Source: a virus. Taken from it: DNA of 32,352 bases. Under the pieces are notes generated by a model. That model searched no databases. It saw only the letters and a program-made list of their open reading frames with translations, and had not been told where the DNA came from. The stretch is from IMG/VR virus record IMGVR_UViG_3300037189_022604, positions 1-32,352 of that record, one strand, 5' to 3'. Each line of letters begins with the position of its first letter. Position 1 is the stretch's first letter. The translations under genes were made by a program, and so were the position numbers. Of the stretch, positions 1 through 24,316 are shown one piece after another.

Positions 1-125
1 AATGGGGAAATATACCTGGATATCTGTTTAATTTCCTGTGCGGCATCGTTAGGGCAGCAGGGTAGCGCAACCGATTGCATGCAGGCATGGTCGGGAAGGT
101 CGTCGCCCATAATATAAGCGGCCGT
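1..125 (-). pseudogene. kdsC: Host kdsC fragment (Kdo-8-phosphate phosphatase), interrupted by the prophage
   Basis: Reading leftwards from about 116, the frame encodes AYIMGDDLPDHACMQ, then LPCCPNDAAQEIKQISRYIS, and runs off the window. This is the C-terminal motif of KdsC-type HAD phosphatases (MGDD.PD, then a CP.DA motif), which remove phosphate from Kdo-8-phosphate in LPS synthesis. The frame meets a TGA at 126-128, where homologues would continue, so the host reading frame ends at about 118-126. That is where the phage must start. Both ends are partial. The family call is firm; the exact junction is not, because I see no clear TG terminal dinucleotide there. Confidence 0.75.
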
Positions 126-129
126 TCAA

Positions 130-170
130 AACGTATAACTTTTTCGTTCCAGCCGGGTAACTTTTACAAA
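130..170. other. Probable phage terminus with transposase-binding-like repeats
   Basis: Just inside the deduced host/phage junction there are two related A/T-rich motifs, CGTATAACTTTTTCG (131-145) and GGGTAACTTTTACAA (about 155-169). A looser copy, CGTACTTTTAAGG, lies near 439-451. Mu-family transposases bind repeated sites at both phage ends, so these are candidates for such sites. This is inference from position and repetition only; the other phage end is outside the window and cannot be compared. Confidence 0.35.
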
Positions 171-228
171 AATGTGAAAAAACACACACACCGCTCTTAA
201 ACCCCTTTTTTACCTAATTTTACCACCG

Positions 229-359
229 CCAACCAAGTCACATCAGCCGTCACATAACAACGGCCTGATTTCCCTTTTATAGTCGAAATCCCGCCCGGAC
301 AGGTCCGAAAGGACCAGGCTGATGTACTTGGTTGGCACCATACTCTGCCGTCCGGGCGG
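229..359 (+). ncRNA. Candidate structured RNA at the phage end
   Basis: The stretch has several long exact pairings. Bases 291-300 (CCGCCCGGAC) pair perfectly with 350-359. Bases 302-306 and 311-315 form a hairpin capped by a GAAA tetraloop on the plus strand. Bases 229-248 pair with 317-335 through 19 pairs and one bulged C. Because 291-300 lies inside that last helix and its partner outside, the two long helices form an H-type pseudoknot. Alternative local hairpins also exist (242-250/260-269, and 324-332/337-343). The GNRA loop favours plus-strand transcription. I do not recognise the RNA family. A 65-codon minus ORF overlaps it but looks like a by-product. Confidence 0.5.
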
Positions 360-395
360 ACCTTACTGAAACCCGCTACCACAGCAATTTTCACC

Positions 396-470
396 CAAAA
401 AAAGTAGGTATTTTTTTTGTTTGTCTCAGGCGCTTTTCGTACTTTTAAGGAGTGAAAACGCTGGTGCGCG
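396..470. other. Non-coding end of the cassette region with A/T hairpins
   Basis: Between the structured RNA and the formyltransferase-like gene there is an A-tract/T-tract inverted repeat (about 396-420, A7 then T8). A second imperfect inverted repeat pairs GCGCTTTTC (about 430-438) with GAAAACGC (about 454-461). Either could end leftward transcription of the cassette. No gene is visible here. Confidence 0.3.
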
Positions 471-481
471 GTGTCATCTTT

Positions 482-1135
482 TTACCGACTCGGCCCTCCA
501 ATCATTAACAAATCAGGCTTAAATACGTCTTTAACATCTGTTGAAGGCTCAAACGTAGCATATCTGTCGTCCTGCGGCACTCGCAGTATTACCCCCTTAC
601 CGATATCATCCAGCGCCTTACTCATTAGCTGGACGCCAATGTTCATCAACTGGTCACGCCACAATATGCGCGCTGCCTCCCTAGGATGCTTATAGTACAG
701 TACCGGGTCAATAAAGCACCAGTCCTGGTACGCTATATCGCCCCGATCGATGCCATTGTTTAGCCAAAATACCGTGCCCCCTGTTACTGGCTCCTTCATT
801 CGTATAGCCCACTCAATGGCCGACTTGCCCCTATGCCTAGGCAATAGCGACGGGTGGTACCCTATCCAGCCCACCCGCGCCCTATACCGTGTTTTCTTGC
901 CAATGTAGTCGAAGGAATGCGCGGTAATGCCCAAGTCCACACCGCCCGGCATCGTGTCCGCATTAAGCGTTCCAGCGGGCAATATGGGCACTTCATTAAC
1001 CCTCGCAAGGTTACCTATGTACTTATCGCCTAGCGGGCAGCACACACCCACCACGTCGGCTTTTGCAAGACATAACCTTAACACCTCCTCTCCGAACTTC
1101 TTTTGCCCTGAAATAAAGACTTTCAACTTACTCAT
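482..1135 (-). CDS. Formyltransferase-like protein
   Basis: The 217-aa product resembles the catalytic domain of 10-formyltetrahydrofolate-dependent formyltransferases (Fmt, PurN, ArnA). The diagnostic block is YHPSLLPRHRG at 93-103, followed by TGGTVFWLNNGIDRGDIAYQ around 118-137. His94 and Asp130 match the usual catalytic His and Asp, but the Asn expected two residues before the His is Gly92. The Fmt C-terminal tRNA-binding domain is absent, so tRNA is an unlikely substrate. I chose ATG 1135 because an upstream in-frame start would lie deep inside the GNAT frame; ATG 1135 overlaps the GNAT stop by 8 nt, suggesting coupled translation. Substrate unknown; a role with the ABC/GNAT protein in base modification is inference. 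Confidence 0.7.
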   Translation of the reverse strand: MSKLKVFISGQKKFGEEVLRLCLAKADVVGVCCPLGDKYIGNLARVNEVPILPAGTLNADTMPGGVDLGITAHSFDYIGKKTRYRARVGWIGYHPSLLPRHRGKSAIEWAIRMKEPVTGGTVFWLNNGIDRGDIAYQDWCFIDPVLYYKHPREAARILWRDQLMNIGVQLMSKALDDIGKGVILRVPQDDRYATFEPSTDVKDVFKPDLLMIGGPSR

Positions 1136-1649
1136 CGCCTGCGTATTTAAATGCTTGTATCGCCCGGAAATGACCACCATACCCGGTGTTTCCGCTCTTG
1201 AAATTCTTAGACTTGCCCGTCCTGATGATACTGGCGGCGCTCCTCACTTTGTTGCTGCCGTAGAAATGCGCTGCCGTCTGCACCCAGCCTTTTGCCTTAC
1301 GCAGCGCCATGCAGAGCTGCGGGTGAGAGGTATGAAAGAACACGGGCAACTTGTGGCCACAACGCCCGTTACCATCCACATGATACTGGCATACGTACTT
1401 CAGGAACGCCATTCCTACCCCCGTGCCCTGCCACTCGGGCATTACCACCAGCCGTGTGGCCCTATAGGCCTTCGCCGTAAACATCGGACACACCGCAAGG
1501 TGGCACACCAGCTCGCCGTCTATCGTGCCTACAAAGTATTCGGCACAAGGTGGGTGCGCGAGGTCTAAATAGTAATGCGGCTTAAAGTAACGCCAGTAAC
1601 TTCCGTTGACCTTCCTAATTTCCAGCTCAATGGCTGGCCGCCTGGCAGT
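1128..1649 (-). CDS. GNAT-type acyltransferase domain, readable as -1 extension of the ABC ATPase
   Basis: In the -1 frame relative to the ABC gene, an open frame runs from the A10 tract to 1128. It reads TARRPAIELEIRKVNGSYWR, then FKPHYYLDLAH, FVGTIDGELVCHLAV and RLVVMPEWQGTGVGMAFL. The last block is a typical GNAT motif A (QGTGVG, the acyl-CoA pyrophosphate loop). No ATG opens the domain before GNAT strand 1; the first usable codon is a GTG at 1508, which would cut off a conserved N-terminal part. From memory, ABC-ATPase/GNAT composites with this W..F..H.YL linker are single proteins elsewhere. So this half is probably made by frameshifting, or the gene has a homopolymer indel. Mu Mom also has a GNAT fold, but I see no specific Mom signature. 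Confidence 0.65.
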   Translation of the reverse strand, partial: TARRPAIELEIRKVNGSYWRYFKPHYYLDLAHPPCAEYFVGTIDGELVCHLAVCPMFTAKAYRATRLVVMPEWQGTGVGMAFLKYVCQYHVDGNGRCGHKLPVFFHTSHPQLCMALRKAKGWVQTAAHFYGSNKVRSAASIIRTGKSKNFKSGNTGYGGHFRAIQAFKYAGDE

Positions 1650-2254
1650 TTTTTTTTTAATGAGGCCGTCCTCGTGTCATATACCCAGTCCGGCTGCAGC
1701 CAGTCTAGCACATCGTAGTGGCACGATAGCAGTATTACCTGCTTCCCTTTGTTCCTGCGCCATGCCTTAGCAAACGCCGCTGCTCCCACCTTGGCTATCT
1801 GCCGGTCAACCACGCTTGTAAATTCGTCCACCACTACCTTAACGGGCGCCTCTACCACCAGCCGCGCCAGCCCGGCTCTAAACTGCTCCCCGTTCGAGAG
1901 CACAGCAAATGGCCGCAACCATGCCGGCACATCCCCAAGCCCCACCGATGCCATCGCCCCGGTTACGGCCTTAAAATCGCCATCTGGTGCAATACAATCC
2001 ACAATCGGCTTGTCACGGTCCCAGCCCGCCGCAAGGTTATACACTGCATCCGCCCCCCACACTTGTTTGCCAAGGCTCGACTTACCGCTTCCTGATGGGC
2101 CAACGATAACGCCAATGCTCCAGTCGTCGCCCTCGATGGGCAGCTCTGCGGTGTGGTTCCATTCATAGCCCGTTTCCGCATTAAACAGGGCCTTAACTTT
2201 CTCCGCCCTGAAGGAGTCGTAGTTTTTGCAGCTGTGCCGCACTTCAATTTTCAT
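1565..2254 (-). CDS. ABC-type ATPase (N-terminal half of an ABC-GNAT protein)
   Basis: The 229-aa product is a soluble ABC ATPase. It has Walker A GPSGSGKSS (52-60), a signature-like LSNGEQ (119-124), Walker B VKVVVDEFTS (138-147) and an H-loop His in SCHYD (179). There are no membrane segments and no permease neighbour, so it is not a transporter. After LKKK at residue 202 the zero frame gives a 27-residue tail unlike family members, while the -1 frame continues into a GNAT domain. The start ATG overlaps the stop of the 52-aa gene as ATGA (2254-2251). Likely role: NTP-driven partner of the acyltransferase, possibly on DNA. Confidence 0.75.
   Translation of the reverse strand: MKIEVRHSCKNYDSFRAEKVKALFNAETGYEWNHTAELPIEGDDWSIGVIVGPSGSGKSSLGKQVWGADAVYNLAAGWDRDKPIVDCIAPDGDFKAVTGAMASVGLGDVPAWLRPFAVLSNGEQFRAGLARLVVEAPVKVVVDEFTSVVDRQIAKVGAAAFAKAWRRNKGKQVILLSCHYDVLDWLQPDWVYDTRTASLKKKLPGGQPLSWKLGRSTEVTGVTLSRITI
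1622..1660 (-). promoter_or_regulatory. A10 slippage tract with downstream hairpin
   Basis: On the minus strand the ABC frame reads TTA AAA AAA AAA CTG (ten consecutive A, 1658-1649). This contains A AAA AAA in the correct phase for -1 slippage and is long enough for RNA polymerase slippage. Eleven nt downstream a CCAGC/GCTGG hairpin (1637-1633 with 1626-1622) could stimulate shifting. A shift of -1 joins the ABC and GNAT frames. A sequencing error or a real one-base loss would look identical. Confidence 0.5.
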
Positions 2255-12331: not shown

Positions 12332-12865
12332 TTACAAATACTGTATAATGCCCCCGCCTTTCAGGTAGCTTACATGGCGCACCTTTCGGCACACCTCATA
12401 CCCTTCGCGGTCGCCATCGTCATTGGTATTGCCCTCTACCGTGTGCAGGTTAAACCCTTCCACCCTTTCCACAATGCCCGTATGCCCGCTGCCATCAGCA
12501 TTAATGCGAATGAACTGATCCCCGGGCTTAACCAGCTCTGGCTTATGGAAGACAGTAGCAAAAGGGATTTTAGTACCCTTGGTATCCCGCCAGCAAGCAG
12601 CCACACCGCCGGTCTTCACCACCGGGTTCACGTCCATCATCCCACGCTCCGCAGCAGGAGGCAGCGCCTCCTCAAAACAGCGGTGCACGAACGCCTGGCA
12701 CCACGCATAACCCTTGCCCAGTCCTACCAGCCGCAGGCATTCCTCCACGAATGGACCAGCATTGCTGCCTTTCGGCTCCTCTTGCTGCCCTATATAACTA
12801 ATCGCAATCTCCAACGCCTTCAGCGCTATGTTGCTACTCAGCTGCTTTTTAATATCAGTACTCAT
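12332..12865 (-). CDS. Endolysin, CHAP-like peptidase
   Basis: A 177-aa soluble protein. It has YAWCQAFVHRCFEEA around residues 53-67, with the Cys expected of a CHAP (cysteine-histidine peptidase) active site, and SGHTGIVERVEGFNLHTVEGNTN around 125-147, carrying the partner His and the downstream Glu/Asn of that fold. There is no signal peptide, so export needs a holin. The adjacent membrane proteins (13037-14110) fit that role. Function: cleavage of peptidoglycan stem or cross-link amide bonds at lysis. Confidence 0.75.
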   Translation of the reverse strand: MSTDIKKQLSSNIALKALEIAISYIGQQEEPKGSNAGPFVEECLRLVGLGKGYAWCQAFVHRCFEEALPPAAERGMMDVNPVVKTGGVAACWRDTKGTKIPFATVFHKPELVKPGDQFIRINADGSGHTGIVERVEGFNLHTVEGNTNDDGDREGYEVCRKVRHVSYLKGGGIIQYL

Positions 12866-23638: not shown

Positions 23639-24316
23639 CTATTGATTTTCGTGGTTAAACAATGCTAACTGTTGGGCGTCGTATTCCTTTTGCTTTGCCT
23701 TTATTGGCTCGAAAAGCGACTTAATCGCTTTTCGTTGCAGCAAAATCAAAACGTAACGCTCTTCGGCGAACACAAACCCATCCACTTGCATAAAAGCCGT
23801 TGTCCAGCGCTTCGATGGCTTGTACTCACTGCCGCTTCGTTGTGTTTTACCTCGTAACAATTGTAGAACATGTGCATAACGATAGTAAACTATACCGTCA
23901 ACATCTATGCGGTCGATACCCGCTAAACCTTGGCAGTAGGCGCCATACTTCCGAATGCTCGGCAATACATCCATGGTTACCCACTTTTGGAACGCTTTCG
24001 CCTCTTCTTTTCGGCTTTGGAAAATCAGAGTGTACAACCCTGACTCATTTACAAAATGGCTTTCCCTACCCTGACCTGAGGTATATACTGTATACCTCAG
24101 CCTCTGATAATCTTCCAAGCTTTTAACAGCCATTTTGTTGTTTTGGATACCCAGTGCATCACATACGTCTTTAGCCAGAAACCAAGGCTCCCCGGCTATC
24201 ATTTCTACCTGAATGCTTTGGTCGGAAAAGAAAAAGGATAGTTCGTTTCCTGAACTACTGGTCATCGGGCCGCTACTATTATTCGCGATCTTTTGATGGT
24301 GCTGTTTGTTTGGCAT
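23639..24316 (-). CDS. Bro-N domain antirepressor-like protein
   Basis: A 225-aa protein. Residues about 27-130 carry the Bro-N pattern: WFLAKDVCDALGIQNNKMAV, then HFVNESGLYTLIFQSRKEEA and FQKWVTMDVLPSIRKYGAY. This is shared by phage antirepressors. The C-terminal 90 residues are basic and of unknown fold (EYKPSKRWTTAFMQVDGFVF). It likely binds DNA or a repressor to control the lytic choice. Its start codon lies in a 15-bp inverted repeat. Confidence 0.75.
   Translation of the reverse strand: MPNKQHHQKIANNSSGPMTSSSGNELSFFFSDQSIQVEMIAGEPWFLAKDVCDALGIQNNKMAVKSLEDYQRLRYTVYTSGQGRESHFVNESGLYTLIFQSRKEEAKAFQKWVTMDVLPSIRKYGAYCQGLAGIDRIDVDGIVYYRYAHVLQLLRGKTQRSGSEYKPSKRWTTAFMQVDGFVFAEERYVLILLQRKAIKSLFEPIKAKQKEYDAQQLALFNHENQ

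Follow-up and report, generated by a model that had tools for sequence, protein, structure and literature searches.

The right end of a Mu-like phage

The stretch of DNA analysed here (the window) is a virus record of 32,352 bases and comprises most of a Mu-like phage of the Bacteroidota type, with genes for Mu portal, Mu F, Mu Gam, a MuB-like ATPase and a tape measure protein. Gene orientation places the phage right end at the low end of the window. The other end lies outside: the record ends a short way upstream of the MuB-like gene, and past that edge lie the transposase A gene and the left end. The phage probably ends at position 113, and positions 1-112 are therefore probably host DNA. 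Its last genes form a modification-type cassette on the minus strand (formyltransferase, GNAT, ABC-type ATPase), and between this cassette and the phage end, beginning about 115 bp inside the phage as counted from 113, sits the element that we call RNA1.

113, probable phage right end (TATAAGCG...), from its likeness to the ...CGATTATA ends of relatives
123-143 and 145-165, two imperfect 21-bp repeats read from the sequence, putative transposase-binding sites; relatives have paired repeats at the same place
215-222, plus strand, putative promoter -7 element TAATTTTA, from the alignment of members; mostly TATATTTG in relatives
228-359, plus strand, small RNA (RNA1) from the first P1 base to the last P5 base, ends unmapped; match of model R2
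228-248, plus strand, 5' strand of helix P1 with bulge C239; double changes in 18 of 18 scored pairs among 26 members
247-263, plus strand, junction hairpin P2 (247-250/260-263), competing with the inner end of P1; read from the alignment, contained in models R1 and R2, not separately scored
267-290, plus strand, hairpin P3a (267-272/285-290) with the conserved loop ...TTTATAG...; computed fold of 229-361 and conserved columns
291-300, plus strand, 5' strand of the pseudoknot helix P5; double changes in 5 of 9 pairs in an alignment not fitted to P5
302-315, plus strand, hairpin P4 (GGTCC-GAAA-GGACC); sequence and fold
317-336, plus strand, 3' strand of P1; same covariation count as the 5' strand
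350-359, plus strand, 3' strand of P5; followed by a U-run in many relatives but not in the window
482-1180, minus strand, formyltransferase gene, last of the cassette (PF00551, E 2.3e-15)
1128-1508, minus strand, GNAT-like gene (PF13508 below cut-off; phrog_11143)
1565-2254, minus strand, ABC-type ATPase gene of the cassette (PF00005; phrog_11143)

The cassette at 482-2254 also occurs in Flavobacterium/Chryseobacterium-type phages, Porphyromonas phages and integrative prophages. It resembles a DNA-hypermodification (mom-like) module, at the right ends of Mu-like phages.

Two crossing helices

P1 (228-248/317-336) consists of 20 Watson-Crick pairs and one bulged base (C239), and it is crossed by P5, a perfect helix of 10 bp (291-300/350-359). 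An earlier note on this DNA had pointed out a 19-bp helix at 229-248/317-335, which is P1 minus the terminal G228-C336 pair, a perfect 10-bp helix crossing it, which reads from the sequence as P5, and a hairpin closed by GAAA, which is P4. A further local hairpin that it placed at 242-250/260-269 exists but contains an unpaired base; its inner part (247-250/260-263) is the junction hairpin of relatives, while the outer part rivals P1.

The amount of pairing exceeds expectation, as the note had supposed. Among 2000 dinucleotide shuffles of positions 220-370, a perfect Watson-Crick helix of at least 10 bp arose in 13 and a crossing pair of helices, each at least 8 bp long, in one. The folding-energy z-score of 200-400 was -7.2 on the plus strand compared with -2.9 on the minus strand, and that of 229-361 on the plus strand was -6.9.

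Two partners are open to the 5' strand of P5 in the window (262-300): a GGC immediately before it, giving hairpin P3, and the 3' end, giving P5. Most relatives show this competition too, which might represent a folding switch.

Homologues and models

Relatives were not found in the phage collection by sequence search with positions 1-1200, nor by an exact pattern built from the hairpin. Relatives of the formyltransferase yielded phage ends, to whose flanks DNA similarity was mere noise. A first pattern with fixed P5 letters gave five viral matches and one genome match, of which only L164 (the same phage as L148) was judged real by eye, and was rejected. When 294 genomes around a Flavipsychrobacter MAG were searched at the DNA level, nine matched at E<=0.01. 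Six of these matches spanned 25-27 nt only and were discarded; the three long ones lie at right ends of Mu-like prophages, beside a D12 adenine methylase, and in them the two strands of P1 have changed together.

Model R1 was built from three members, namely two of these genome matches and the window. It matched 7 of 394 genomes, three of which had been found before, and, once the methylase protein had served to fetch 80 phage loci, 15 of 92 phage loci at E<=2e-4. R2 comprised 18 members without the window and matched it at 215-362 (79.6 bits, E 8e-15), in an alignment made with R1, which had included the window; it added one locus, L198, to those located by the relaxed descriptor described below. 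R3, built from the loci in which the RNA precedes the cassette (group B), reached hankyphage (E 8e-8) and some methylase phages but not the window. All model E-values come from a short calibration. Antisense-strand matches of the near-palindromic P1 (L166, L167, L170 and the window) were excluded from A7 and A8 by choice of source and E-value, and L192 was left out of A8 by the E-value cut. A core pattern for group B was too strict, matching 2 of 8 genomes.

Covariation and the RNA strand

Covariation was counted in 26 members aligned to R2, whose structure has no P5, so that the alignment leans to P1 but not to P5. Standard pairs fill 97.8% of the P1 and P5 cells, and double compensatory changes affect all 18 P1 pairs and 5 of the 9 P5 pairs; the observed covariation score was reached in none of 500 shuffles, and sliding the partners by 1-3 columns lowers pairing to 31-42%. 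P5 alone is 97.3% paired, with a covariation score of 0.179 against 0.062 in shuffles. Five loci that were outside this count or misaligned in it (L194, L172, L192, L293 and L294) have wholly different P5 sequences that still pair, and RNAalifold chose P5 as the only helix in a separate set of 18 group B sequences. Matches of the descriptor introduced below pair P1 and P5 by construction and were not counted. The check that the earlier note had named, covariation among homologues, thus gave a positive answer for both helices.

G·U pairs occupy 23 cells and A·C mismatches 2, and the plus strand of the window is therefore the RNA strand. The note had taken the GNRA loop of P4 as the sign of plus-strand transcription. 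Its choice of strand agrees with the G·U bias, but the loop by itself is an unreliable sign, as the loop of L166 differs; GCAA or GAAA closes P4 in L167 and L181, and other loops are found in other members. A minus-strand reading frame at 197-394, which the note had named as what might overturn an RNA, is ruled out as protein-coding: no frame is consistently open across 13 of the 26 members.

These comparisons strongly support the existence and the fold of RNA1 as a genuine small RNA gene, in which compensatory changes preserve both helices although their sequences vary.

A predicted transcription unit

Most members carry TATATTTG or a close form of it a few bases before P1, an element that resembles the Bacteroidota -7 promoter consensus. 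In many, the 3' strand of P5 runs straight into a U-run; in L171 and L294 an extra terminator-like hairpin comes behind it. The element of the window, TAATTTTA, is weak, and its RNA1 has no U-run. The predicted products would be discrete RNAs of about 105-150 nt that start with P1 and end with P5. Together with the compensatory changes in P1 and P5 and the G·U bias, the conserved promoter element and the U-runs uphold the earlier idea of a pseudoknot-capable structured RNA read from the plus strand.

Near the phage right end of several loci, for example L204 and L232, TTTAAA motifs recur every 11-12 bp upstream of the TATATTTG-like element. L214 and L217 have the same repeats without an RNA there; they are possibly a regulator site or bent DNA.

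Distribution and genomic position

Of 80 methylase loci, 41 matched a descriptor composed of the promoter, a 12-bp P1 and a crossing 8-bp P5, as did 15 of 118 other phage loci; one shuffled copy per set gave no match. All but one of these 15 belong to the 38 formyltransferase loci, where the RNA precedes the cassette. One descriptor match, L045, is GC-rich and thought to be false. A relaxed descriptor located the RNA just before dam in 27 of the 80 methylase loci, just after it in 16 and on both sides in none; the control phages for this descriptor are mostly GC-rich and hence weak controls. Every one of the 27 and 16 RNAs lies on the strand opposite dam, and two relaxed-descriptor matches fell on the other strand. 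By the same descriptor 36 of the 80 loci are without an RNA, 13 of them with less than 200 bp after dam.

Whole records, picked for carrying an RNA, had exactly one each (15 of 15). All four named Bacteroidota Mu-like phages examined also carry it: hankyphage p00, Porphyromonas phage011a, the Winogradskyella phage Peternella_1 and TCUEAP3, scanned with a 7-bp P5 in the descriptor and, for TCUEAP3, over the last 6 kb only. In hankyphage (BK010646) the predicted RNA would run on the minus strand from about 40682 to a U-run near 40550, within a region of about 40549-40693. In sampled genomes of the phylum the models matched 3 of 395 and 3 of 385, the centre genome being counted each time; such rarity fits phage cargo.

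The RNA sits near the right end of Mu-like phages, beside and antisense to DNA-modification genes. Its neighbours are genes for D12 methylase, C5 methylase, Mom, the combination of ABC, GNAT and formyltransferase, or thymidylate synthase with D12 methylase, a link that is partly a matter of query choice, as most loci were gathered via methylase or formyltransferase genes. Matches found without those genes agree with it: the genome matches from the DNA search and from R1, and the new pattern matches L258, L265, L266 and L274, have a D12-type methylase beside or near them. At L172/G180, L264, L293 and L294 the D12-type methylase was judged by eye from C-terminal codons. We distinguish group A, with the RNA after the cassette as in the window, from group B, with the RNA before it. 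Both groups have the same anatomy and presumably a common descent. Many transposing phages of Bacteroidota possess the RNA gene, which probably helps the phage inside its host.

A second RNA before an antirepressor-like gene

The window contains a second element of the same anatomy, RNA2, directly before a Bro-N antirepressor-like gene.

24471-24352, minus strand, RNA2
24483-24476, minus strand, promoter-like TACATTTG of RNA2, whose tail is TATTTTTATG
24374-24360, minus strand, 3' strand of the RNA2 P1, a perfect 15-nt antisense to the start of the antirepressor-like gene (target 24301-24316)

The match between RNA2 and its target scores 41, compared with 27.5 for the best of 300 shuffles. In Peternella_1 (L329) a like RNA at 12511-12640 on the plus strand lies directly before a KilA-N gene, and its P1 matches the start codon region over 10+3 nt; the score of 26 (null mean 17, null maximum 30.5) is not significant alone. 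From its sequence RNA2 looks like an antisense RNA of the antirepressor gene, a claim separate from those on RNA1, and it suggests that one fold is used for two jobs.

Discussion

We regard RNA1 as new, because it has no match to an Rfam family and no paper on it was found in open-access PubMed Central. In Rfam 15, nothing near the gathering score appeared for the window (at gathering), for positions 1-480 (E<=10), for 12 relatives' loci, for 8 group B loci or for the RNA2 region. The broad kind, a phage small RNA, is already known, and several known systems invite comparison. The order of helix strands in RNA1 (P1a, P5a, hairpin, P1b, P5b) parallels that of HDV-like ribozymes. However, P1 of RNA1 is about 20 bp long, 42 nt are inserted between P1a and P5a in the window, P1b and P5b have no equivalent of P4 between them, and Rfam gives no match; an HDV-like ribozyme, compared by topology only, was ruled out on the length of P1 (20 bp instead of 7). 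In function, RNA2 looks like the C4 antisense RNA of phages P1 and P7: it lies before an antirepressor-like gene and has a 15-nt complementarity to the gene start. It has no Rfam match. RNA1, unlike C4, has no antirepressor target, as no match to its own phage goes beyond chance, and no Rfam match either. Phage Mu carries com and mom at its right end. The phages with RNA1 likewise have DNA-modification genes there, and the Elizabethkingia phage has a true Mom (PF25680). We know of no such RNA in Mu itself, and the descriptor had no match in the right 7.6 kb of D3112, a Mu-like phage of Pseudomonas.

The AbiF-associated RNA (RCd22, abiF motif RF03085) and type III antitoxin RNAs are like RNA1 in that they are reported to be prophage-encoded structured RNAs of about 100-130 nt with their own promoter and terminator (PMC12373285). 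The AbiF RNA of C. difficile is reported to neutralise AbiF by binding the protein, with the structure mattering and not the letters of the stems (PMC12373285). In contrast to these systems, RNA1 is not adjacent to a toxin gene of the ToxN or Abi_2 kind, its Pfam neighbours being modification genes, and it has no repeated motif (no direct repeats in window 1-700). It also does not match RF03085.

Given this fold and this location, we tentatively propose that RNA1, the product of a small-RNA gene of the phage, acts in trans, by its shape, through a host protein and perhaps a defence protein. Action in trans by shape is favoured because the fold is kept while the sequence drifts, because the gene can precede or follow the modification genes, and because complementarity of RNAs of this class to their own phage does not go beyond chance. 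The last result rules out RNA1 as an antisense RNA to genes of its own phage at large. In the proposed course of events, the host housekeeping polymerase would transcribe RNA1 in the lysogen and early in infection, P5 would help to terminate the transcript, and the folded RNA would, with less certainty, be bound by a host protein and act in trans. The likeliest partner could be a host defence protein, bound in the manner of antitoxin RNAs, and RNA1 would then be part of an anti-restriction island of the phage. Several points speak against this proposal: in the window the promoter is weak and RNA1 has no U-run, antisense control of the cassette could be another reason for the constant strand, and the sister RNA looks antisense. 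Extended to the whole family, the proposal becomes somewhat less probable: an undescribed class of RNAs in many transposable phages of Bacteroidota, the gut hankyphage among them, would be folded anti-defence molecules recognised by shape whatever their sequence, one gene per phage, located in an anti-restriction island beside dam, mom or base-hypermodification genes, and the sister RNA would have become an antisense that silences an antirepressor.

Alternatively, and with a probability only slightly lower, RNA1 could be a cis regulator directed as an antisense RNA against the leader or the trailer of the late dam, mom or formyltransferase transcript, silencing costly genes in lysogens through pairing or opposed transcription. 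The RNA always lies beside and opposite the modification genes, in group B its start precedes the first dam codon by a few tens of bases, and RNA2 has the same fold with an antisense arm against its neighbour gene. Still, the RNA precedes the genes in 27 loci and follows them in 16, which a leader-specific mechanism leaves unexplained. The RNA is weakly complementary to the dam start (mean z 0.7 in 24 group B loci and 0.6 in 12 group A loci), and a conserved pseudoknot is not needed for antisense action alone. We therefore prefer a trans-acting RNA over a cis regulator, by a small margin.

We consider it improbable that RNA1 is a trans-acting antisense RNA against the host or rival phages, in which P1 would store the antisense arm for superinfection or host control. 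The hypervariable P1 does recur, judged by eye, as a few types in distant phages, for example GCCAATCA/TGATTGGC and TCTCAC/GTGAGA, and RNA2 would be a precedent; against this, no target was found in the own phage and no conserved unpaired seed was identified. Nor does a mere barrier to transcription, with promoter and pseudoknot terminator holding back host or late transcripts at the phage end, have much probability. It would agree with the U-run after P5 in many members and with the position near the phage end, but a conserved junction and a P1 of 20 bp are more than a terminator needs, the element is oriented to read into the phage, and the window member has no U-run. The earlier note had also considered a DNA structure used by the transposase in end recognition, with which the location near the phage end would agree; like chance pairing, this idea is now hardly credible in view of the covariation with G·U bias, the promoter, the single case in 2000 shuffles, the position of the putative transposase sites (123-165) outside the element, several related Mu-like phages that end within about 100-150 bp after the last gene and have the RNA ahead of the cassette but none at the end, and a family member beside dam in L258, by eye a phage with an integrase-like gene.

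RNA1 and its relatives would add a structured RNA gene to a large group of temperate phages that includes hankyphage as well as marine phages in culture. Since its place is always next to DNA-modification genes, a role in anti-restriction or in the control of modification becomes directly testable via one small locus. For hankyphage, an inducible dCas9 strain and RNA-seq are described (PMC12135933), so that the transcript can be sought in existing data. In the Porphyromonas phage record BK068092 (L328), an annotated hypothetical gene of 37 codons overlaps the RNA at 33150-33263 on the opposite strand and is probably no gene.
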